Shown piece after piece: positions 1,369-10,772 of a stretch of 64,000 bases of DNA. The DNA is from Leifsonia sp. PS1209 (GTDB lineage: Bacteria > Actinomycetota > Actinomycetes > Actinomycetales > Microbacteriaceae), in assembly GCF_012317045.1 (NCBI RefSeq), contig NZ_CP051154.1, positions 434,001 through 498,000 of the forward strand. The letters run 5' to 3'. A model generated the notes under the pieces. It was not told the DNA's origin and made no database searches. It worked only from the letters and a program-made list of their open reading frames with translations. The translations under genes were made by a program, and so were the position numbers. Numbering within the stretch: position 1 is the stretch's first letter; each line of letters starts with the position of its first letter.

Positions 1369-1395
1369 TGTCACAAACCGGCACCCTCCCCGGTC
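1369..1395 (+). promoter_or_regulatory. Predicted ECF41-type promoter of the sigma factor gene (autoregulation)
   Basis: TGTCACA at 1369-1375, then 16 bases, then GGTC at 1392-1395. As I recall, the ECF41 sigma group recognises TGTCACA, a 16-base spacer and CGTC, and usually controls itself or an adjacent reductase. The same arrangement (one mismatch at the -10 element) lies before the NmrA-like gene at 7841 and, with one further -35 mismatch, before the SnoaL-like gene at 10737. The sigma factor start codon is 80 bases downstream. Confidence 0.6.
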
Positions 1396-1475
1396 TCCCT
1401 GGTGAAGGAGTTCTGTGCCTGGCGTTCCCGCCGAGCGCTCGACGGACCAGAATCGGAAGACGGGACGGGGAACGG

Positions 1476-2363
1476 ATGAACGGGAGAACACGTGCGGCCG
1501 ACGAGTCGCTGGAGATCTTCAGCCGCGAACGGCGGCGGGTCTTCGGCACCGCATACCGGATGCTCGGGTCGGTCTCCGACGCCGAGGACATCGTGCAGGA
1601 CACCTGGCTGCGCTGGCAGGCCGTCGACCCCGCCGAGGTCGACCAGCCCGGGGCGTTCCTGACCACCATCGCCACCCGGCTGTCGATCAACGTGCTGCAG
1701 TCCGCCCGCTCGCGGCGGGAGACGTACATCGGGCCGTGGCTGCCGGAGCCGGTGAACACCGAGGCCGACCCGTCGCTCGGGGCCGAGAACGCGGAGGCGC
1801 TCGAGTTCGCCTGCCTCCTGCTCCTGGAGGCGCTGTCGCCGACCGAGCGGGCGGCATACGTGCTGCGGGAGGCGCTCGACTACCCGTACGAGCGCATCGC
1901 CGAGGTCATCGACTCGTCGCCCGCGAACGCCAGGCAGCTGGTGAGCCGCGCCCGCAAGCATCTGGCGTCCGGTCGCGGCGAGACGGTTCCCGCCAGCGAG
2001 TCGCGGCGACTGCTGGAGGCGTTCCTCAGTGCCGCGCGCACCGGGGACGTCGAGCAGCTCGAGCAGCTGTTCGCCTCCGATATCGTCAGCTACACCGACG
2101 GCAACGGCGTGAAGCAGGCCGCCCGCATCCCGGTGGTGGGGCGCTCGCGGGTGGCGAAGTTCGTCTCCGCGTTCTCCACCCACTTCTGGACGGGCAAGCG
2201 CATCGGCTGGACCACGCTCAACGGCCAGCCGGCGGTGACCGTCTCCGAGGACGGCGCGATCACCACCGTGCTTACCCTGACCGCGTCGCGCGAGGGCATC
2301 CTGCAGTTGCTCTGGGTGATGAGCCCGGACAAGCTGCGCCACGTCGCTCCGGTGGGGGCATGA
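1476..2363 (+). CDS. sigJ: ECF41-family RNA polymerase sigma factor (SigJ-like)
   Basis: 295 residues. The N-terminal half has sigma region 2 (FSRERRRVFGTAYRMLGSVSDAEDIVQDTWLRW, about 14-46) and region 4 (LSPTERAAYVLREALDYPYERIAEVIDSSPANARQLVSRARKHL, about 120-163). A C-terminal SnoaL-like domain of about 110 residues follows. The ECF41 hallmarks are visible: WLPEPV in the linker, DGNGVK in place of DGGGK, and SPDKL in place of NPDKL at the end. In this group the fused domain, rather than a membrane anti-sigma factor, controls activity. Start ATG 1476 follows a purine-rich stretch; upstream in-frame codons are poor in coding signal. The stop overlaps the start of the next gene (ATGA). Its own promoter carries the ECF41-like motif. 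Confidence 0.88.
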   Translation: MNGRTRAADESLEIFSRERRRVFGTAYRMLGSVSDAEDIVQDTWLRWQAVDPAEVDQPGAFLTTIATRLSINVLQSARSRRETYIGPWLPEPVNTEADPSLGAENAEALEFACLLLLEALSPTERAAYVLREALDYPYERIAEVIDSSPANARQLVSRARKHLASGRGETVPASESRRLLEAFLSAARTGDVEQLEQLFASDIVSYTDGNGVKQAARIPVVGRSRVAKFVSAFSTHFWTGKRIGWTTLNGQPAVTVSEDGAITTVLTLTASREGILQLLWVMSPDKLRHVAPVGA

Positions 2364-2776
2364 CGGGCGGCCCGTCCGGATCCTGGCAGCACGTCCCCAC
2401 CCGGTCGGCGGCGCGAGTGTACGCCCGGTCGATCGGCGCGATCCTGGCGATCCAGGATGCGTGCACGTCCGGCGAGGTCGCCGGGCTGGCCCCGCTGCTG
2501 CACGAGGACGCCCACCTGATCGTCGACACGGGCGGCAGGGTCGCCGCGCCGGAGTCCGCCTGCGGGCGCACCTCCGCCCTGCAGACGCTCGCACTGATCC
2601 TGGATGCGCGGAAGGTGGCGACCACGACGATCCACTCCATCAACGGCTCGGCCGGGCTCGCCCTGCGCGACGCAGGCGACCGGGTGATCGGGATCGTCAG
2701 CGTCGCCGTCCACCGTCGCATCGTGCACCGGATCTGGGTCGTGCTCAATCCGGACAAGCTGCGGCACTGGAACTGA
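2360..2776 (+). CDS. Stand-alone SnoaL-like protein resembling the ECF41 sigma C-terminal domain
   Basis: 138 residues, starting at an ATG that overlaps the sigma factor stop by four bases, so the two are translationally coupled. The sequence follows the layout of the sigma factor's own C-terminal extension: AILAIQDACTSGEVAGLAPLLHEDAHLIVDTGGR, then a central beta-rich part, then IWVVLNPDKLRHWN at the end. The sigma factor ends LLWVMSPDKLRHV, and NPDKL is the conserved ECF41 tail motif. There is no sigma region 2 or 4. I infer that it arose by duplication of the regulatory domain and may bind a small ligand or compete for contacts on the sigma factor; a plain NTF2-fold enzyme is the alternative. 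Confidence 0.8.
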   Translation: MTGGPSGSWQHVPTRSAARVYARSIGAILAIQDACTSGEVAGLAPLLHEDAHLIVDTGGRVAAPESACGRTSALQTLALILDARKVATTTIHSINGSAGLALRDAGDRVIGIVSVAVHRRIVHRIWVVLNPDKLRHWN

Positions 2777-2788
2777 GCATGGCAGATT

Positions 2789-2810
2789 CCTCCGCACGTG
2801 CCTGCGGAGG
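2789..2810 (+). promoter_or_regulatory. Hairpin that buries the ribosome-binding site of kup
   Basis: CCTCCGCA (2789-2796) and TGCGGAGG (2803-2810) form a perfect 8-bp stem with a 6-base loop. The right arm contains the GGAGG of the ribosome-binding site, six bases before the GTG start at 2817. The fold would block translation initiation until opened, for example by ribosomes arriving from the upstream gene or by an effector. Confidence 0.55.
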
Positions 2811-2816
2811 GGTAAC

Positions 2817-4739
2817 GTGACGACAATGCAGCCTCACCGTCATCCTGGTGGCCGCCGCGGGTCGCTGATGGTCGTCGCGGTGGCAGCGCTGGGGGTCGTG
2901 TTCGGCGATATCGGGACGAGCCCGCTCTACGCCCTGAAGACGGTCTTCCTGCTCGACGGCGGGGCCGTGCGCGCCAACGAGGGCGACGTGTTCGGCGTCA
3001 TCTCGCTGATGTTCTGGAGCATCACCATCATCGTGTCGATCAAGTATCTCGGCATCCTGATGCGCGCAGACAACGACGGCGAGGGCGGAGTGATGGCCCT
3101 GGCCGCGCTGGCGCAGCGACTGTATGCGAAGCGCGCAGGCAAGGCGGGCATCCTGCTCGTGATCGGCATCGTGGGGGTCTCGCTGTTCTACGGAGACTCG
3201 ATCATCACCCCCGCGATCAGCGTCCTCTCCGCCGTCGAAGGTCTGCACGTCACGGTGCCGGCGATCTCGCATCTGGTCATCCCGATCGCCGCGGTGATCC
3301 TCGTCGGCCTGTTCCTCGTGCAGCGCTACGGCACCGGCCGGGTCGGTGTGCTGTTCGGACCGATCATGGTGCTGTGGTTCGTGGTGCTCGCCGCGGCCGG
3401 CCTCGGCATGGTCATCCAGTACCCGTCGGTGCTACTCGGCCTGTCGCCCAGCTACGCGGTGGTCTTCATCTTCTCCCATCCCGCGATCTCGTTCATCGCG
3501 CTCGGTGCCGTGGTCCTCGTGATCACCGGCGCCGAGGCGCTCTACGCCGACATGGGCCACTTCGGGCGCTCGCCGATCCGGCGGGCCTGGTTCTTCCTGG
3601 TCTTCCCCGCCCTCACGATCAACTACCTCGGGCAGGCCGCGCTGGTGCTGCACGACCCGGCGGCGAAGGCCAACCCGTTCTTCCTGCTGATCCCGGATTG
3701 GGGCAGGCTGCCGGTGGTCATCCTCGCGACCGCCGCGACCGTGATCGCCAGCCAGGCCGTCATCTCCGGGGCGTTCTCGCTGTCCCGGCAGGCCGTGCAG
3801 CTCGGGCTGCTTCCGCCGCTCACCGTGCGGCAGACCTCCCGGCGCGAGGGCGGCCAGGTCTACCTGCCCGCCATCAACGCGCTGCTGCTGATCGGTGTGC
3901 TGGCGGTGATGCTCGCGTTCGGGTCGTCCGACCGGCTGTCCACCGCATACGGGATCTCGGTCACCGGCGCCCTCGTCGTCGACACGCTGCTGCTCGTGCT
4001 GGTCGCCCGGCCGCTGTGGGGTTGGGGGCCGTGGAAGATGGCGGCGGCCGCCATCGTGTTCGGCGGGCTCGAGCTGGCGTTCCTCGCCGGCAACCTCTCG
4101 AAGATCGTCAACGGCGGCTGGGTGCCGCTCCTCATCGCCGGCGCGGTCATCCTGGTGATGACGACCTGGCGCCGCGGCAGGCTGCTTGTGCAGGAGGACA
4201 GGAAGAAGAAGGAGGGTTCGCTCCAGCAGTTCATCGAGGACATCCGCGCGAAGAACCTCCCTCGCGTCCCCGGCATCGCGGTGTTCCCGCACCCGAACAA
4301 GGACAGCACGCCACTCGCCCTCCGCGCGAACGTCGAACACAACCACGTGCTGCACGAGTCCGTCATTATCGTCTCGATGAGCACGGCGTCCGTGCCGCAC
4401 GTGCCGCCGCTGGAGGCGTTCACCTACGACGAGCTCGGATACACCGACGACGGTATCGAGCACCTGACGATCCGGTTCGGCTTCTCGGACAAGCCGGACA
4501 TCCCGCGCGCGCTCCGTGCCGCCTGTTACGCAGGAGTGCTCCCGCTCGACGCCAGAGACTTCAAGGAAGCCTCGTACTTCATCTCCCGCGGGGCGATCCG
4601 CACCACCAAGAAGAGCAGCATGGTGCGCTGGCGCCGGTCGCTGTTCGTCGCGCTCGCGCACAACGCCGCCGACCCCGCCGCGCGGTTCGGGCTGCCTGCG
4701 TTGCGCACGGTGACGATGGGCAGTGACGTCGAGATCTGA
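2817..4739 (+). CDS. kup: Kup-family low-affinity potassium uptake protein
   Basis: 640 residues, the usual size for Kup/HAK/KT transporters, which import K+ with protons across the cytoplasmic membrane. The N-terminus carries the family signature GVVFGDIGTSPLYALKTVF (about 25-43), followed by about 12 hydrophobic helices to near residue 450 (including VSLFYGDSIITPAISVLSAVEG). A soluble C-terminal domain follows (VPGIAVFPHPN, DGIEHLTIRFGFSDKPDIPRAL). The GTG start at 2817 is favoured because GGAGGGG precedes it by about five bases; ATG 2826 is too far away. The ribosome site lies in a hairpin. The gene is 40 bases downstream of the SnoaL-like gene and could be read from the same transcript. 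Confidence 0.95.
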   Translation: MTTMQPHRHPGGRRGSLMVVAVAALGVVFGDIGTSPLYALKTVFLLDGGAVRANEGDVFGVISLMFWSITIIVSIKYLGILMRADNDGEGGVMALAALAQRLYAKRAGKAGILLVIGIVGVSLFYGDSIITPAISVLSAVEGLHVTVPAISHLVIPIAAVILVGLFLVQRYGTGRVGVLFGPIMVLWFVVLAAAGLGMVIQYPSVLLGLSPSYAVVFIFSHPAISFIALGAVVLVITGAEALYADMGHFGRSPIRRAWFFLVFPALTINYLGQAALVLHDPAAKANPFFLLIPDWGRLPVVILATAATVIASQAVISGAFSLSRQAVQLGLLPPLTVRQTSRREGGQVYLPAINALLLIGVLAVMLAFGSSDRLSTAYGISVTGALVVDTLLLVLVARPLWGWGPWKMAAAAIVFGGLELAFLAGNLSKIVNGGWVPLLIAGAVILVMTTWRRGRLLVQEDRKKKEGSLQQFIEDIRAKNLPRVPGIAVFPHPNKDSTPLALRANVEHNHVLHESVIIVSMSTASVPHVPPLEAFTYDELGYTDDGIEHLTIRFGFSDKPDIPRALRAACYAGVLPLDARDFKEASYFISRGAIRTTKKSSMVRWRRSLFVALAHNAADPAARFGLPALRTVTMGSDVEI

Positions 4740-4769
4740 CGCCGACCACTCCGGACGCGGGAGCGAGCG

Positions 4770-4883
4770 TCAGGGGACGTACGCCGCCAGCGGCTGCAGG
4801 GCGGGCTGCGACGCGGGATCCGCGACCGCGGCCTGGATGGTATGCGCGGAGGGCCCGGCCGTACCAAAAGTTACGCAGCGCAT
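4770..4883 (-). pseudogene. Possible truncated gene tail at the edge of the TIR insert
   Basis: A 37-residue frame ends SAHTIQAAVADPASQPALQPLAAYVP and stops at 4770. The part inside 4770-4861 has the host's G/C-rich codon pattern and the look of a genuine protein C-terminus, while the bases beyond about 4862 change abruptly to AT-richer sequence. I read it as the surviving 3' end of a host gene that lost its body when the TIR insert arrived. It could also be a chance open frame. Confidence 0.3.
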
Positions 4884-4915
4884 AGGTTAACGAGACGCGG
4901 TGGTAGTGACGCTGT

Positions 4916-6061
4916 TCAACTGCTGATTTGGGCCTCTTGAATGTTCTCTAGCCCAGTTTCGTCGATCAGGACAATCCAAGCCTTCATGACGGAAAGCCCT
5001 TCGACTAGGAGGGTCAGCCCCTCACGAAGAGTCCGAATCGGAGCGCGCAGGTCTCGAGAACTCTTCTCCAACGGGCTGAGGGCATCGACCATCGATTTGA
5101 CGGCACCTAGGCCAATCTCGGACTGAGCGACCATGGTGCGCACCGTCGAGAAGAATTGGACGAACTCCTCCCTAGCCTCGGGGTTCTCGCTGACCTCTAC
5201 TGGCGCCCGTTGGATGATGACACGGACGCCCTCGTCAACGTCATGCAATCGACTTGCAAATCGATTGCCATAGTCCCTGATTTCCTCGGCAGGCGCCTTT
5301 AGCTTTTGCGCGAGCTGTCGGGCTACGGTCAATCGCGCAGCTATTGCAGCTCCGGCGGCGTTCTGAGCTTCAATGTCCGTGGTGGCAGACGCCATGGCGT
5401 TGCCAATATCTTCGATTGTCTGCCCTACAGCGATGATCGTCTCAGACAGGTCCGGTAGGGCATCCTCCATGAGCCCAAGCTTGTCCAGGGTCCCCGATTC
5501 ATCGAGGTCCTCGGCCGCCTCGATTCCGGCCAATACACTTCCGTCTGCCGCAGCCTTGTCCGCCATGGCATTGGCTGCAACCAGCCGTTCCGCCAGCCCA
5601 GATACTGCGCGCTTGTAATCGCCCGAGGACGGGTCGGCGAATCGCAAGTCTGTCCAGTTGACCCACTGAAAGCGGGTGACCATTGCCATGAGATCGTCGG
5701 TCTGCGGCTCGCTGTGAAGGTTGGCAAAGTCGACATAGAGAATGGGGAGAACAAGTTCTTTGATGCCCAACTTCTCAGCATTGCGAGCGAAGAAATTGAG
5801 TTCCCGCCTACACTCGGCGCTCTGGAAATACCGAGGTGTGATAATTGGCATGAAGAAGGCGATAGACGACAAGCTTTCATCAATCCTTGGACGCCAGTCA
5901 TCTCCCCAGACGAGGTTGTCACGGTCAAGGAACAGTTGTACGGGTTCTCCAGTGAGCATTTCAAACTGACTTGCGACATCTCGCGCCAGTTGAGCGATTC
6001 TCCCGGTTTCGGCATCGTCGTCAGCGTGAACATAGGACCAGAAGCCGTCGATTACTGCCAT
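4916..6061 (-). CDS. TIR-domain protein with a long helical C-terminal region
   Basis: 381 residues. Residues 5-135 form a TIR domain: GFWSYVHADDD (first strand), VQLFLDRDNLVWGDDWRPRIDESL (BB-loop region), FFMPIITPRYFQSAECRREL (fourth strand and helix), where Glu87 in CRREL occupies the position of the NAD-hydrolase glutamate of bacterial TIR enzymes. The remaining 240 residues are helical and charged (VGQTIEDIGNAMASATTDIEAQNAAG and onward), suggesting coiled coils or a sensor/oligomerisation arm. There is no signal peptide or membrane helix. GC content and codon use (TTT, CTA, AGG, TTG) are clearly unlike the neighbours, indicating horizontal transfer. No Thoeris partner, STING, Argonaute or CRISPR gene is adjacent, so an antiphage role is only inferred. 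ATG 6061 is preferred over GTG 6076; neither has a good ribosome site. Confidence 0.85.
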   Translation of the reverse strand: MAVIDGFWSYVHADDDAETGRIAQLARDVASQFEMLTGEPVQLFLDRDNLVWGDDWRPRIDESLSSIAFFMPIITPRYFQSAECRRELNFFARNAEKLGIKELVLPILYVDFANLHSEPQTDDLMAMVTRFQWVNWTDLRFADPSSGDYKRAVSGLAERLVAANAMADKAAADGSVLAGIEAAEDLDESGTLDKLGLMEDALPDLSETIIAVGQTIEDIGNAMASATTDIEAQNAAGAAIAARLTVARQLAQKLKAPAEEIRDYGNRFASRLHDVDEGVRVIIQRAPVEVSENPEAREEFVQFFSTVRTMVAQSEIGLGAVKSMVDALSPLEKSSRDLRAPIRTLREGLTLLVEGLSVMKAWIVLIDETGLENIQEAQISS

Positions 6062-6076
6062 AGGGGAACCATACAC

Positions 6077-6500
6077 GCGGCGGAGACCGTTTCGAGATCC
6101 ACGGTTCCCGGGCCCATCCCGAGCTGTTTGGTCATCCGTTCCCGGCTGCCGACCGGCTGTTCAACTCCGACCGGTGAGACTTATCGGCTCGCGATCCCGG
6201 ACACCGAACGAATCGCGTTCAAGAGCCTCGGGGTCCCGCCCGACGCCTTCCGCGCCTTGGTGAACGAATCGTCACTTCCACCGCCAGTAATATCCACGCA
6301 TCCCGTTCGAGGTTGGGCGCGAAATACCCTAGCTGGTCGCGGGATCGAGCGTTGCAAGATGTGCTCGCCGTCGCGGACGGCGGCCCATGCGATGCCGAGC
6401 GAGAGCACGGAGCAGAACTCCCGCTAGACGCCGGGCGGCGATCGCAATACCCTCGCAGCAAGCGCTGAAACAGCGCGAGCGGGCAGCAGGGAGGCGCCGC
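6077..6500. other. Gene-poor boundary between the TIR insert and the AI-2E-type gene
   Basis: About 420 bases with no convincing gene. Short frames hint at decayed coding sequence: on the plus strand a frame reading GGDRFEIHGSRAHPELFGHP and ending at 6176-6178, and another containing RLAIPDTERIAFKSLG up to about 6270. Neither has a start with a ribosome site. A weak ATACCCT lies near 6324 and again near 6447, the latter 50 bases upstream of the next gene and a possible promoter element. I see no direct repeats marking insertion ends. Confidence 0.35.
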
Positions 6501-7742
6501 GTGACGAATCATTCCCAGCAGGCGGACGGCAAGCGGCGGCGGTGGTGGCCGTTCCACCGCCGCGCCGCGCGGCAGCAGACGCAACCGCCCGCCGATGCGG
6601 ACGCAGACGCCGGGGCAGGCGCGACCGGTCAGGGCGGCGGCCGCGGGGTGCGCATCCTACTCGGTTTCGCCAGCGCCGTGGTCGCCGCGTTCGGGATGCA
6701 CGCGATCGGCAGCATCCTCGCCCCCGCCCTGCTCGCGCTCGTGCTCACGATCTGCGCGCAGCCGGTGCGGGTGTGGCTGACCAGGCACGGCACACCGGCC
6801 GGCATCGCGACGGGTGCGGTCGCGCTGACCACCTTCGCGCTGCTGGCAGCGTTCGCCGGGCTGCTGATCTTCGCGATGGCGGACTTCGTCGGGATGCTGC
6901 CCCAGTATCAGGCGGAGCTGCAGGCGTTCGGCGCGCAGGTCGGGGCGTGGCTGAACAGCATCGGGATCGGGTCGGAAGACGTGAAGGCGATCACCGGCGG
7001 CTTCGACCCGTCCAAGTTCCTCAACTTCTTCACCAGTCTGCTCGGCGGCGCGTTCGGCCTGCTGTCGTTCGGCGTGATCGTGCTGACCATGCTCATCCTG
7101 ATGCCGGCGGACGCCGCGTACACGCCGACGCTGTTGCGGCAGCTGAAGCCGACAAAGCCGAACCTCGTGTACGCGATCTCGGCGTTCGCGACGAACGTGC
7201 GCAGGTACATGGTCGTCACCACGGGGCTCGGCATCGTGCAGGGCGTCATCAACGGTCTGGCGCTGTGGCTGCTCGGCGTGCCCGCCGCGCTGCTCTGGGC
7301 GATCCTCGCGTTCCTGTGCAGCTTCATCCCGAACGTCGGCTACTTCATCGCCATCGTGCCTCCGCTGGTGTTCGGCTACCTCACCGGCGGGTGGGAGACG
7401 GTGATCGCGATCATCGTGATCTACGGGCTCATCAACGCCGTCGTGCAGTCGGTCGTGCAGCCGAAGGTGGTCGGCAACGCTGTGGCGCTGAGCCAGACGC
7501 TCACCTTCTTCTCCGTGCTGTTCTGGGCGTTGGTGCTCGGAGCGATCGGCGCGATCCTGGCAGTCCCCCTGACGCTGCTGGTCCGCGCGGTGCTCGTCGA
7601 CGCCGACCCGCGCGCCCGCGTCTGGCGCGCGGCCATCGGCGACCTGAGCGAGACCCGCGCGATTATGCGCGCGGAGGCGAAGGACAGGAAGGACGCCAAG
7701 CGCGCAGGGGGCGTCCCGGATGCGGAGGAGCCGCCCGCCTGA
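6501..7742 (+). CDS. AI-2E family (UPF0118) membrane transporter
   Basis: 413 residues. A basic, glutamine-rich cytoplasmic N-terminus (about 55 residues) precedes about eight membrane helices of the AI-2E/UPF0118 family: ILLGFASAVVAAFGMHAIGSI, then LTTFALLAAFAGLLIFAM, a soluble stretch, then the conserved late block ALLWAILAFLCSFIPNVGYFIAIVPPLVFGYLTGGWETVIAIIVIYG and VVQPKVVGNAVALSQTLTFFSVLFWALVLGAIGAILAVPLTLL. Family members export small molecules or act in Na+/H+ exchange, so the substrate cannot be assigned. GTG 6501 has GGGAGG six bases upstream. A charged tail (RAEAKDRKDAKRAGG) ends the protein. Confidence 0.88.
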   Translation: MTNHSQQADGKRRRWWPFHRRAARQQTQPPADADADAGAGATGQGGGRGVRILLGFASAVVAAFGMHAIGSILAPALLALVLTICAQPVRVWLTRHGTPAGIATGAVALTTFALLAAFAGLLIFAMADFVGMLPQYQAELQAFGAQVGAWLNSIGIGSEDVKAITGGFDPSKFLNFFTSLLGGAFGLLSFGVIVLTMLILMPADAAYTPTLLRQLKPTKPNLVYAISAFATNVRRYMVVTTGLGIVQGVINGLALWLLGVPAALLWAILAFLCSFIPNVGYFIAIVPPLVFGYLTGGWETVIAIIVIYGLINAVVQSVVQPKVVGNAVALSQTLTFFSVLFWALVLGAIGAILAVPLTLLVRAVLVDADPRARVWRAAIGDLSETRAIMRAEAKDRKDAKRAGGVPDAEEPPA

Positions 7743-7779
7743 CGCGTTGCTCTTCGAGGTGCTCCCGATCGCGCGGAAC

Positions 7780-7806
7780 TGTCACAACGGTTCCCGCTGC
7801 CCGGTC
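7780..7806 (+). promoter_or_regulatory. Predicted ECF41-type promoter of the NmrA-like gene
   Basis: TGTCACA at 7780-7786, a 16-base spacer, and GGTC at 7803-7806, followed by 34 bases to the ATG at 7841. It is identical in both boxes and in spacing to the promoter of the sigma factor gene at 1369-1395. Genes for NmrA-like epimerase/oxidoreductases are typical targets of ECF41 sigma factors. Confidence 0.65.
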
Positions 7807-7840
7807 AGAGCTGGTGTAACCATCCAGCGAAAGGAATGCC

Positions 7841-8608
7841 ATGAAGATCGTGGTCATCGGCGGTACAGGACTCATCGGGGGGCCGCTCGTCGACCTGCTG
7901 CGGCAGGCGGGGCACGACGTGGTCGCCGCGTCGCCGTCGACGGGCGTGAACAGCGTCACCGGCGAGGGGCTCTCCGACGCGCTCGCCGGAGCGGACGTCG
8001 TCCTCGACATCCCCAACTCGCCGTCGTTCGCCGACGACGACGTGCTCGACTTCTTCCAGCGGTCCACCACCAACCTGGTCGAAGCGCAGAAGGCGGCGGG
8101 GGTCGGGCACCACATCGTGCTGTCCATCGTCGGCGCCGACCGGATGCACGACATCGGCTACATGCGAGCCAAGGTCGCGCAGGAGAACATCGTCACGGCC
8201 AGCGGTGTGCCGTACAGCATCGTGCGCGCCACCCAGTTCTTCGAGTTCATCCCACGGCTCGCGGAAGGCGCGGCGGACGGGGACACCATCCGGCTCTCGC
8301 CCGTGATGATGCAGCCCATCGCCGCCGCCGACGTGTCCGCGGCGCTCGCCGACATCGCCACCCGGCCGCCGACCAACGGCATCGCCGAACTCGCCGGACC
8401 GGAACAGCTCCGCCTCGCCGACCTCGGCCGCCGCGTGCTCGAAGCGCGCGGCGACACCCGCACCGTGGTGGCCGACCCGGATGCGGGCTACTACGGCGGC
8501 GTGGTCAGCGACACATCCCTGGTGCCGGGGAACGACCCGGCCATCACAGCGCTGCGGATCGGGCCGACCCGCTTCGAGGAGTGGCTGGGCGCTGCCGGGG
8601 GGAACTGA
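7841..8608 (+). CDS. NmrA-like NAD(P)-binding oxidoreductase/epimerase (SDR superfamily)
   Basis: 255 residues. It opens with a Rossmann dinucleotide site, MKIVVIGGTGLIGGPLVDLL (GGTGLIG), with an atypical-SDR layout: DVVLDIPNSPSF, GVGHHIVLSIVGADR, YMRAKVAQENIV, YSIVRATQFFEFIP. The canonical SDR YxxxK is represented only by YMRAK, so catalytic activity is uncertain. AAAGGA lies 5-10 bases before the ATG. Members of this family are regularly linked to ECF41 sigma factors and counted among their targets. Here the gene sits 5.5 kb from sigJ but retains the matching promoter, and a strong terminator follows. The substrate is unknown. Confidence 0.85.
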   Translation: MKIVVIGGTGLIGGPLVDLLRQAGHDVVAASPSTGVNSVTGEGLSDALAGADVVLDIPNSPSFADDDVLDFFQRSTTNLVEAQKAAGVGHHIVLSIVGADRMHDIGYMRAKVAQENIVTASGVPYSIVRATQFFEFIPRLAEGAADGDTIRLSPVMMQPIAAADVSAALADIATRPPTNGIAELAGPEQLRLADLGRRVLEARGDTRTVVADPDAGYYGGVVSDTSLVPGNDPAITALRIGPTRFEEWLGAAGGN

Positions 8609-8622
8609 GCGTCGCACGCACG

Positions 8623-8654
8623 GAACCCTCGCCCATCCCGGTGGGCGGGGGTTC
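8623..8654 (+). terminator. Intrinsic terminator after the NmrA-like gene
   Basis: GAACCCTCGCCCA (8623-8635) pairs with TGGGCGGGGGTTC (8642-8654) with one G-T wobble and a 6-base loop, followed by TTCGTG. It lies 15 bases after the stop and just before the next promoter. Confidence 0.7.
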
Positions 8655-8670
8655 TTCGTGTGCCCCGACC

Positions 8671-8697
8671 TGTCACATTCGCGCCCTCCCAGCTGTC
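8671..8697 (+). promoter_or_regulatory. Candidate ECF41-like promoter of the cytochrome b gene
   Basis: TGTCACA at 8671-8677, 16 bases, then TGTC at 8694-8697. The -35 box is perfect and the spacing is the same as at the other sites; the -10 element differs from CGTC at its first base. An overlapping CTTATCTAG (8697-8705) could serve a housekeeping promoter instead. Confidence 0.45.
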
Positions 8698-8722
8698 TTA
8701 TCTAGTGAGACAGGAGGACATC

Positions 8723-8767
8723 GTGCAAAGGATTCTTGTGGTGGGTAGCGATCATGTCCCGCTCTGA
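8723..8767 (+). CDS. Short upstream open frame overlapping the cytochrome b start
   Basis: A GTG at 8723 follows a strong AGGAGG (8712-8717) by five bases and opens a 14-codon frame, MQRILVVGSDHVPL, that stops at 8765-8767, just inside the cytochrome b gene (ATG 8754). This is the best ribosome site in the area, better than that of the cytochrome gene. It may be a leader peptide coupling translation, or the leftover start of a lost response-regulator-like gene. Confidence 0.4.
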   Translation: MQRILVVGSDHVPL

Positions 8768-10409
8768 CCGGCGCTCGCGCAGGCGCTCCATCACCGACAG
8801 GGCCGCGACCGGCTTCGCCACGCGGACCGCGCTCGGGCGCCGGCTCACCGCGCTCGCCGCCGAGCTCCGGCAGCGGCACATCACGCTGCACTGGACGAAC
8901 ATGTTCGGCGTCGTCTCGCTGGCCTGCGTGGTGGTCGTGTTCGTCAGCGGCGTCTTCCTGATGTTCTTCTACGCGCCGTCCAGCACGCCGGTCGTCTACG
9001 GCGGTGCGTACGCCCCGCTCGGTGGGGCGACCATGTCGAAGGCGATGCGGTCGACACTCGCCATCTCGTTCGAGGTGCCGGGCGGGCTGCTGATGCGGCA
9101 GGTGCACCACTGGGCGGCGCTGCTGCTGCCCGCCGCGCTCATCCTGCAGCTGCTGACCACGTTCTTCACCGGAGCGTTCCGCCGGCCGAGACGCCTCAGC
9201 TGGGTGCTGCTGTTCCTTCTCCTGATCCTGGCGCTGGCGGGAGGGTGGAGCGGGTACGCGCTGCCCGACGACATGCTCTCGGGCACCGGACTGCGCATCG
9301 TCGAGGGCATCGTGCTCGGGATCCCGGTGGTCGGGACGTGGGCGTCCGCTCTGCTGTTCGGCGGCGAGTTCCCCGGGCAGATCATCGAGCATCTGTACCC
9401 CGTCCACGTGCTCGTCGTCCCGGCGGCACTCGTCGGGCTTCTGGTCTGGCGCATCCGGATCGCGTACGTGGAGCGGCCGCCGCAGTTCGCCAGGGAGGGT
9501 GCGACGGAACGCGCCGTCGTCGGCGTCCCCGTGCTGCCGAACGCGGCCGTGCGCGCCGGAGGGCTGTTCGCGATCGTGACCGGGCTGCTGTTCCTGGTCG
9601 CTGCGACCGTGACCGTCAGCCCGATCTGGCTGTACGGCCCGTCGTCCGGCGGCGACGCATCGGCGGGCAGCCAGCCGGACTGGTACACGGGATTCCTCGA
9701 CGGAGCGCTGCGGCTCGTGCCTCCCGGCTGGGAGTTCGTCTGGCTCGGCCGCACCTGGACGCTCGCGATCCTCGTGCCGCTGGCCGTCGTCGGGGTGTAC
9801 CTCGCCGCTGTGCTGCTCTACCCGTTCGTGGAGGAGTGGATCACCGGCGACGCCCGCGAGCACCACATCCTGGATCGTCCGCGCAACACCCCGGCACGCA
9901 CCGGGATCGGGGTGGCGGGGATCGTCTTCTATGGCGCGCTGTGGGGTGCGGGCAGCGCCGACCTGGTCGCGACGCACTTCCAGCTCGGCATCGAGACGGT
10001 GGTGCACGTCTACCAGGCGGCGGTCGTCGTCGGCCCGCTCGTCGCGTTCGCCGTCACCAGCCGGGTCTGCCTCGCGCTGCAGAAGAAGGACGGCGAACTG
10101 CTGCTGCACGGCTTCGAGACCGGACGGATCGTGCGCCTGCCCGGCGGCGAGTACGTCGAGGTGCACCAGCAGCTCGACGAGCACGAACGCTGGAAGCTCG
10201 CGAACACCAGCGACGGCGAACCGTATCAGGCACGGCCGGACGCGCGCGGGCATCTCGGGATGGTCAGCAGGGTGCGGGCGGGCATCTCCCGGTTCTTCTT
10301 CGAAGACAGGGTCAGCCCGGTCGCTCGGAGCGTCGAGCCTCCGCAGCCGGTCACACGTGGTGACCGCGCCGCAGAGCCTGCGGGTGCAGGCGCACCCAGA
10401 TCACGCTGA
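8754..10409 (+). CDS. Orphan QcrB-like cytochrome b lacking the haem bH ligands
   Basis: 551 residues, the size and layout of actinobacterial QcrB, the cytochrome b subunit of the bc1 complex. Landmarks are SFEVPGGLLMRQVHHWAALL, FFTGAFRRPRR, YALPDDMLSGTGLR, GTWASALLFGGEFPG, the Qo-site PDWY (canonical PEWY), and the tail HGFETGRIVRLPGGEYVEVH. The first ligand of each haem pair remains (His118/119 and His218). The partners for haem bH are gone: Gln132 stands where QcrB has His in HMARIFFTG, and Arg233 where it has His in GLHLAL. There is no Rieske, cytochrome c1 or oxidase gene nearby, so this is not the respiratory operon copy. TTG 8736 is an alternative start. The 3' end overlaps the convergent SnoaL-like gene by 59 bases. 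It may be a one-haem electron carrier. Confidence 0.85.
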   Translation: MSRSDRRSRRRSITDRAATGFATRTALGRRLTALAAELRQRHITLHWTNMFGVVSLACVVVVFVSGVFLMFFYAPSSTPVVYGGAYAPLGGATMSKAMRSTLAISFEVPGGLLMRQVHHWAALLLPAALILQLLTTFFTGAFRRPRRLSWVLLFLLLILALAGGWSGYALPDDMLSGTGLRIVEGIVLGIPVVGTWASALLFGGEFPGQIIEHLYPVHVLVVPAALVGLLVWRIRIAYVERPPQFAREGATERAVVGVPVLPNAAVRAGGLFAIVTGLLFLVAATVTVSPIWLYGPSSGGDASAGSQPDWYTGFLDGALRLVPPGWEFVWLGRTWTLAILVPLAVVGVYLAAVLLYPFVEEWITGDAREHHILDRPRNTPARTGIGVAGIVFYGALWGAGSADLVATHFQLGIETVVHVYQAAVVVGPLVAFAVTSRVCLALQKKDGELLLHGFETGRIVRLPGGEYVEVHQQLDEHERWKLANTSDGEPYQARPDARGHLGMVSRVRAGISRFFFEDRVSPVARSVEPPQPVTRGDRAAEPAGAGAPRSR

Positions 10410-10737
10410 TCAGCGCCCCGGTGACGTCGACGGTCATGGCGGCCGTCGTCTCACCGCCGGCGCTGAGCAGCAGCCCGGCCTGACCGTTCACCGGCCGCTC
10501 CACCACGTCCAGCTCCGGCTTCCTCGCCATGCTGTGCAGCAGCAGCGAGACGGCGTCGAAGGTGCCGTTCACCATCCGCAGCGCTGGATGCTCGTCGTCG
10601 CCGGAATCGACCACGACGGCCACATCCGGGGCGAGCATCGACTCCAGCCGGTCGGCGTCGCCGGACACGGCCGCCAGCCGCAGCTCGCGGACGGCGCGGT
10701 GGTGCAGGGGGCGGGGGAGGAACGCGGAGATGTTCAT
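10351..10737 (-). CDS. SnoaL-like protein related to the ECF41 C-terminal domain
   Basis: 128 residues, a second stand-alone relative of the sigma factor's C-terminal extension. RELRLAAVSGDADRLESMLAPDVAVVVDSGDDEHPAL corresponds to the first helices and strand, and ISVIWVRLHPQALRRGHHV to the NPDKL tail, which is degenerate here. AAGGGT directly precedes ATG 10737. Its promoter has the same spacing as those of the sigma factor and the NmrA-like gene. The 3' end overlaps the cytochrome b gene tail-to-tail. Such domains may bind small hydrophobic ligands, but no catalytic residues can be assigned. Confidence 0.75.
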   Translation of the reverse strand: MNISAFLPRPLHHRAVRELRLAAVSGDADRLESMLAPDVAVVVDSGDDEHPALRMVNGTFDAVSLLLHSMARKPELDVVERPVNGQAGLLLSAGGETTAAMTVDVTGALISVIWVRLHPQALRRGHHV

Positions 10738-10745
10738 ACCCTTAA

Positions 10746-10772
10746 GACCGCCGGGGCGTGCGGAATGTGACC
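10746..10772 (-). promoter_or_regulatory. Predicted ECF41-type promoter of the second SnoaL-like gene
   Basis: Reading the minus strand: GGTCACA (10772-10766), a 16-base spacer, then GGTC (10749-10746), eight bases before the ATG. The -10 box and spacing match the sigma factor and NmrA-like promoters; the -35 box has one mismatch. The short distance suggests a transcript starting at or near the start codon. Confidence 0.55.

Follow-up and report, generated by a model that had tools for sequence, protein, structure and literature searches.

ECF41 sigma factors form a widely distributed group with no obvious anti-sigma factor, and no signal is described for them in the portions of the literature examined here. 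The available part of the study of the B. licheniformis and R. sphaeroides factors (Wecke et al., 2012, PMC3426412) outlines a fused C-terminal domain, a WLPEP motif, a TGTCACA −35 element, a spacer of 16, autoregulation and a COE-type NmrA-like target; it reports no detectable targets beyond the sigma gene itself and the COE genes, and no further conserved regulon members, and the passages available on S. meliloti RpoE9 likewise describe a single target. Here we analyze an ECF41 locus in a 64-kb stretch (G000:C1:434001-498000, hereafter the window) of a single-contig 4.09-Mb Leifsonia genome. This locus shares all those features but differs from the published cases, as far as the available text goes, in its −10 elements (GGTC or TGTC, not CGTC), in its number of promoters (four, against one target) and in its targets, to which a respiratory paralogue and free-standing regulatory domains are added. 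Three other systems resemble parts of it. M. tuberculosis SigJ (PDB 5xe7) shares the family models that the sigma factor of the window matches above cut-off. The ECF56 pair SigG1-RsfG of Streptomyces tsukubaensis also combines a sigma factor bearing a SnoaL_2 extension with an adjacent small regulator gene, but in the part of the source at hand SigG1 lacks NPDKL and RsfG is called an anti-sigma protein, known here by that description and not as a copy of the sigma domain (PMC7730460). QcrB of the actinobacterial bcc-aa3 supercomplex (e.g., PDB 7q21) shares the family model NF050120, the heme-bL ligands and the PDWY motif with the cytochrome b of the window, in which, unlike in the supercomplex, both heme-bH ligands are replaced and whose gene lies in an ECF41 locus.

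The sigma factor gene (1476-2363, + strand) encodes an ECF41/SigJ-type protein with a fused C-terminal SnoaL domain, matching TIGR02957 with 348.7 bits (cut-off 323.25) and NF007214 with 292.3 bits (cut-off 271), in agreement with the assignment made by an earlier reading of the window from sequence only. Its sigma2-sigma4 linker has GPWLPEP, and its C-terminal extension of ~125 amino acids carries DGNG and, near the end, SPDKL where ECF41 has DGGG and NPDKL; we take DGGGR to be an ECF41 extension motif. Four promoters, each with a spacer of exactly 16 bases, were located by direct reading and pattern search just as the sequence-only reading had described them: TGTCACA-N16-GGTC before the sigma gene (1369-1395, +), the same arrangement before an NmrA-like gene (7780-7806, +), TGTCACA-N16-TGTC before a cytochrome b gene (8671-8697, +) and GGTCACA-N16-GGTC before snoaB (10746-10772, −), 8 bases from its ATG. 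The NmrA-like gene (7841-8608, +) encodes an NAD(P)-binding oxidoreductase above the cut-offs of Pfam NAD_binding_10 and NmrA, the usual COE-type target, so the locus has both the TGTCACA element with a spacer of 16 ± 1 and a COE-type neighbor, the latter with the best-scoring site. To score these promoters we built a matrix from 65 distinct sites of relatives, with the window excluded, and scanned the window on both strands. The top four positions in 64 kb were exactly the promoters of the NmrA-like gene (38.3 bits), the cytochrome b gene (33.7 bits), the sigma gene (27.9 bits) and snoaB (14.5 bits), and the next score was 1.9 bits. Because a matrix made from relatives alone ranks exactly these four sites first, which we regard as the decisive evidence, the four-site set proposed by the sequence-only reading is confirmed as the predicted regulon of the sigma factor, and it is very probable that all four promoters belong to this sigma type.

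The comparison set comprised 40 loci of relatives, picked by homology to the genes of the module or to ECF41 factors, plus the first 14 kb of the window (41 loci, 639,663 bases), with genes called by open-frame heuristics and BLAST. Across these loci the number of KGTCACA-Nk-NGTC matches peaked at k = 16, with 77 matches against 3 for the reversed control; a secondary peak of 30 matches at k = 11 arises because TGTC occurs five bases before the −10 element, and every other k from 8 to 30 gave 0-6 matches. Almost all of the sites (73/77) are placed −12 to 181 bases from where a gene of a listed family is projected to begin, the families being NmrA (22), the QcrB paralogue (11), free-standing SnoaL proteins (11), an NDH-2-like family that we call NDHx (11), alpha/beta hydrolases (5), this sigma type (4) and others (9). 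Two of the four sites without a listed family, in L088 and L128, precede epimerase-type genes in the locus layouts. Directly after the −10 element, at promoter positions 27-37 and spanning the expected start site, lies a conserved box of approximately TTAGCTGGTGA (8.2 bits), which is present at the promoters of the NmrA-like gene (7807-7817) and the cytochrome b gene (8698-8708); the sigma promoter has CTGGTGA, one base early, and the snoaB promoter lacks most of the box. In L115, the nearest relative compared, CGTCACA-N16-GGTC stands 8 bases before the ATG of snoaB and the stretch from the −10 element to the ATG is unchanged; this distance, common to the window and L115, suggests that the snoaB mRNA is leaderless. 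More widely, GTCACA-N16-KGTC, with any first base, was found within 175 bases upstream of 15 of 24 snoaB homologues.

None of the four −10 elements of the window (GGTC, GGTC, TGTC and GGTC) matches the ECF41 consensus CGTC. At loci carrying this sigma type, defined by at least 58% identity across the sigma regions, the base before GTC was G or T in 75/75 distinct sites (59 G, 16 T), while it was C in 9, G in 2, T in 2 and A in 1 of the 14 sites at other ECF41 loci and C in 5, T in 5 and G in 2 of the 12 in stretches without a sigma gene. Since the −10 base tracks the sigma subtype (75/75 against 9/14 C), it is the subtype as such that departs from CGTC, and the variation seen in the four sites is a genuine trait. 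In the portion of the earlier work available, the site tables for R. sphaeroides and B. licheniformis vary as well, CGTC being a consensus and not a requirement (Wecke et al., 2012, PMC3426412).

The sigma type and the cytochrome b also travel together. In a survey of 28 Leifsonia genomes, scoring the cytochrome b at E 1e-200 or better and this sigma type at 56% identity or more (the next best match had 45%), we found the cytochrome b in 16 and the sigma type in 15. Both occurred in 15 genomes, the cytochrome b alone in one (G026), the sigma factor alone in none and neither in 12 (Fisher p = 4e-7, not corrected for ancestry), and in all 15 genomes with both, no more than ~6.4 kb separates the two.

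Several observations weigh against assigning the four promoters to one regulon. The strict pattern TGTCACA-N15/17-SGTC, with which the sequence-only reading had proposed to scan the genome, gave six matches and six in the reversed control, which is background; since the strict pattern equals its control, the consensus alone would not prove the regulon, the scan was rejected as proof, the pattern on its own fails the refutation criterion that the same reading had set, and the claim that the regulon can be read from promoter sequence alone gave way to the need for comparison. The counts in the comparison set are not independent, the loci having been selected by homology to the module and the species being related, and when ~60 shuffled versions of the −35 element were searched in these loci at spacing 16, they averaged 2.8 matches, one of them reaching 17. 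The snoaB promoter is the weakest of the four, gaining nothing from its spacer or the downstream box, and 9 of the 24 snoaB homologues have no GTCACA-N16-KGTC within 350 bases. G026 lacks a sigma factor of this type yet retains, with KGTC sites, both snoaB and the cytochrome b, and at several cytochrome b loci in other genera no sigma gene was seen within the stretch fetched. On the other side, the window holds two strict matches where shuffles predict 0.19, and the relaxed pattern KGTCACA-N16-NGTC was found 16 times in the genome against 2 for its reversal, with seven of the 16 at the three ECF41 loci of the genome and four of these in the window.

Within the same genome we considered a wider regulon and rejected it. 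The matrix gave at most 5.7 bits to the nine matches outside the ECF41 loci, none of which we claim, and 1.0, 4.1 and 10.8 bits to the sites at the other two ECF41 loci; this genome-wide scoring covered KGTCACA-N16-NGTC matches, so promoters that break the pattern would escape it.

We see an even chance that the locus is an autoregulated regulon of an ECF41 subtype with a ligand signal, a one-heme cytochrome b and feedback through SnoaB and a second free-standing SnoaL protein, SnoaA. In the resting state the fused SnoaL domain would dock on the sigma core, as is known for ECF41. This docking would be shifted by a small hydrophobic ligand (perhaps a quinone-like or aromatic compound or a respiratory inhibitor), and the sigma factor would transcribe its own gene and its targets. 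Two kinds of protein would be made in response, an NAD(P)H oxidoreductase and a respiratory protein in altered form. The latter, a cytochrome b reduced from two heme sites to one, presumably could not run the Q-cycle and would probably still bind menaquinol. The free-standing SnoaL proteins would close the loop: SnoaA, whose gene is coupled to the sigma gene and which keeps the docking motif, may target the sigma core in trans, and SnoaB, with the motif lost, may bind or buffer the ligand. The identity of the signal as quinone-like, aromatic or a respiratory inhibitor, judged from the pocketed fold and the kinds of target only, is a doubtful guess. A conserved multi-promoter regulon with paralogues of respiratory quinone proteins among its targets would provide a concrete signal hypothesis for ECF41, and free-standing SnoaL domains offer a form of in-trans control that can be tested.

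The gene snoaA (2360-2776, +) begins with an ATG that overlaps the stop codon of the sigma gene (ATGA) and encodes an ECF41-type SnoaL domain with NPDKL that matches only positions 176-289 of the 293 of NF007214. Since it overlaps the sigma stop codon, the module holds at least five genes and not the four counted before, when snoaA was missed. The product of snoaB (10360-10737, −), whose gene is convergent with the cytochrome b gene and overlaps its end, matches only positions 171-287 of the same model and lacks the PxKL docking motif. We correct the label SnoaL-like given to it earlier to a free-standing homologue of the C-terminal domain of the sigma factor itself. Neither SnoaA nor SnoaB reaches the cut-off of a Pfam family; a protein of Leifsonia sp. 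Le1 shares 96% identity with SnoaA. A profile of 14 free-standing SnoaL proteins had a single relative in the PDB below E 0.001, SigJ (5xe7), matched over its extension. The profile matched 212/394 genomes of the class at E 1e-10; the matches listed were mostly long, sigma-sized frames, and among them a few short frames from outside the family were those of G506, G366 and G592.

An AlphaFold2 model of SnoaB built with 14 sequences (pLDDT 88.7) showed an NTF2/SnoaL fold whose best structural match was the SnoaL domain of SigG1 (Z 12.5), with NTF2-like proteins and ketosteroid isomerases at 10-12. We therefore set the fold comparison aside as proof of kinship with sigma domains, which it cannot separate from ketosteroid isomerases.

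The roles proposed for the two proteins follow a division within a set of 36 free-standing SnoaL proteins found by BLAST (E 1e-4), 12 of them labelled A (as SnoaA) and 24 labelled B (as SnoaB); the set excludes other free-standing SnoaL genes, for example those that follow the sigma genes of L096 and L104. The docking motif [NDS]PxKL is present in 10 of the 12 A proteins and in one of the 24 B proteins, that of L114, which was labelled B by its best match and looks like A. All 12 A genes follow a sigma or a cytochrome b gene. A KGTCACA site lies within 200 bases of 11/24 B genes and of no A gene. In the accessible part of the description of this motif, NPDKL links the extension to the sigma2-sigma4 linker (PMC7730460). 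From these sequence features, action of SnoaA on the sigma factor in trans is plausible at a little under even chances.

The strongest rival concerns these proteins: they may be enzymes (isomerases, cyclases or hydrolases) that transform the inducer, and removal of the ligand, not regulation, would close the loop. The fold is common to ketosteroid isomerases and epoxide hydrolases, SnoaB has no docking motif, and in a domain tree the 36 free-standing proteins split from 60 sampled sigma-fused domains with 99/90 support, the tree being unrooted, with few columns and long branches flagged. The same split makes it less likely that snoaA or snoaB was recently duplicated from this sigma gene. Against enzymes stand the motif kept in 10/12 SnoaA proteins, the position of their genes behind sigma or cytochrome b genes, and SigJ as the only PDB sequence relative below E 0.001. 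We judge the enzymatic explanation a serious minority possibility.

The cytochrome b gene (8754-10409, +) encodes a QcrB paralogue that matches NF050120 with 559.7 bits (cut-off 500) and is 54% identical to the other QcrB of the genome, encoded 1.96 Mb away. His 111 and His 212, the heme-bL ligands, are kept, while the heme-bH positions 125 and 227 hold Gln and Arg; we assigned each histidine to its heme by presumed homology to mitochondrial cytochrome b. When 33 unique orphan QcrB sequences were aligned with 71 unique others, His 111 and 212 and the PDWY motif were present in all but a fragment (L102). Position 125 was Gln in 31/33 and position 227 Arg in 30/33 of the orphan sequences, the exceptions being L126 (Leu at 227), L097 (His and Tyr) and the fragment; 70 of the 71 other sequences had both bH histidines, the exception being L189 (His and Tyr). 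The alignment with C. glutamicum QcrB shows the same two replacements. The protein that the sequence-only reading had called an unusual cytochrome b is indeed unusual, and to that description we add its QcrB ancestry and the loss of the heme-bH ligands, which had gone unnoticed. Absence of heme bH is highly probable from these residues. Without bH ligands, neither electron transfer across the membrane nor the Q-cycle should be possible, and a conserved QcrB family of this kind would be a natural experiment on the capabilities of a cytochrome b that runs no Q-cycle.

Beside ECF41 genes, L097 (7291-8850) and L189 (9890-11482) carry QcrB paralogues in which one bH ligand is lost, and these are possible intermediates. 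The L189 protein, from a Rhodoglobus metagenome-assembled genome, is 61% identical to the cytochrome b of the window.

The promoter is tied to this type of gene. Among 106 distinct qcrB-type genes, of which one Gln-type and one His-type were dropped because the sequence upstream was too short, an ECF41-type site with a spacing of 15-17 on the same strand within 1.7 kb upstream was present for 28/32 Gln-type and 1/72 His-type genes. The single His-type gene with such a site, in L261, likewise belongs to an ECF41 cluster, which lies outside the order, has a different gene arrangement and comprises NDHx, SnoaA, NmrA, a flavoprotein resembling fumarate reductase and a QcrB with both bH histidines. 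L259, also outside the order, carries NDHx, a Gln/Arg cytochrome b, the sigma factor and NmrA, and Gln/Arg-type genes occur in Agromyces, Okibacterium and a Microbacterium as well.

An NDHx gene, at least 79% identical to that of G011 (in G013 it is in two pieces), stands by the cytochrome b gene in 10 of the 16 Leifsonia genomes with the latter; in relatives its place is after the promoter and ahead of the cytochrome b gene. NDHx is ~60% identical to a protein carried in full by 27 of the 28 genomes of the genus and as a fragment by G024; its Pfam match is Pyr_redox_2, no family model named NDH-2 was matched, and our reading of it as NDH-2-like comes from its sequence. The genome of the window has no NDHx match above 60% identity. 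After the cytochrome b promoter and a ribosome site, the window reads VQRILVVGS, within a 14-codon frame (8723-8767, +; VQRILVVGSDHVPL), where L114 has the intact NDHx start VRRILVVGGGYAGF. An NDHx-type start is joined in frame to the cytochrome b gene in L115 and L126 and left as a cut frame in L124, while L125 and L127 show no legible NDHx scar. The scar after the promoter therefore indicates that NDHx was deleted, leaving the ECF41 promoter before the cytochrome b gene.

The QcrB paralogue could also be a surplus or degenerating qcrB that persists with no role of its own, given that two of its four heme ligands are gone, that no qcrA or qcrC gene was recognised beside it in the locus layouts (no profile search for them was made) and that its NDH-2-like partner is lost in 6/16 genomes of the genus. 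We find this improbable: the same two replacements recur across genera with the bL ligands and PDWY kept, the promoter is retained, and the ratio of nonsynonymous to synonymous substitution (dN/dS) is 0.19 against L115, at the lower end of the 0.19-0.25 seen for the cytochrome b, NmrA and SnoaB. It is more improbable still that control by the sigma factor stops at its own gene and the NmrA gene, in the manner of an ordinary ECF41 circuit, with the cytochrome b and snoaB sites due to chance or decay, for the single COE-type target in the available accounts of published factors, the background frequency of the strict consensus and the low, unsupported score at 10772 are met by 33.7 bits at the cytochrome b site against 1.9 for the best non-site, by a promoter kept before 28/32 Gln-type genes even where the intervening gene was deleted, and by a snoaB site kept in 15/24 homologues.

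Returning to the ligand-controlled regulon, we tentatively extend it to a fuller proposal, in which a small-molecule signal would lead this ECF41 subtype to rewire respiration. The one-heme QcrB paralogue and an NDH-2 paralogue, the one that the lineage of the window has lost, would act as a short relay from NADH to menaquinone, or the QcrB paralogue would replace QcrB and block or bypass the Q-cycle, and the system would be tuned in trans by SnoaA at the sigma core and by SnoaB at the ligand. The sequence-only reading had held cytochrome b to be a non-standard ECF41 target, and it is indeed absent from the targets named in the available part of Wecke et al. (2012, PMC3426412), where the word cytochrome does not appear. 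In the literature searched, which left several key ECF41 papers outside, neither free-standing ECF41 SnoaL domains nor control of qcrB or NDH-2 paralogues by ECF41 factors were found to be described, and some of this context may already be noted in ECF41 subgroup tables; where the excerpts seen pair ECF41 with cytochrome b, the target that resembles cytochrome b is assigned to other sigma factors.

The genome's second ECF41 gene scores 228 bits, below the cut-off of the SigJ model, and has the canonical ECF41 arrangement, with two facing TGTCACA-N16-CGTC sites (L215 4508-4569; G000:C1:407507-407568) between it and a divergent epimerase-type gene. The third has one KGTCACA-N16-NGTC site, before the adjacent FAD oxidoreductase gene.

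In the window, kup, TIR-domain and AI-2E transporter genes separate the sigma-snoaA pair from nmrA, which are neighbors in several relatives. The Kup-type potassium transporter gene (2823-4739, +) lies ~40 bases behind snoaA and may be read through from the sigma promoter. The TIR-domain protein (4916-6076, −; Pfam TIR_2), with a weak ZorA-like match of 19.6 bits in its C-terminal half, is a possible defence gene product. Divergent from the sigma gene, a 373-amino acid protein (216-1337, −) had no Pfam match at E 0.1 and no PADLOC match. Near other ECF41 loci, a flavoprotein of the SdhA/FrdA/L-aspartate-oxidase kind recurs (L088 8370-10121, L114 4434-6179, L142 5200-7074 and L261 9681-11588), below the cut-offs of the best family models, with the L142 and L261 copies 80-82% identical to that of L088. 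Finally, alpha/beta hydrolases occur at loci of this sigma type in other genera (L087, L096, L102, L103, L104, L264 and L265), some of them behind ECF41-type sites, and L087 and L265 add an OhrR-like MarR regulator.

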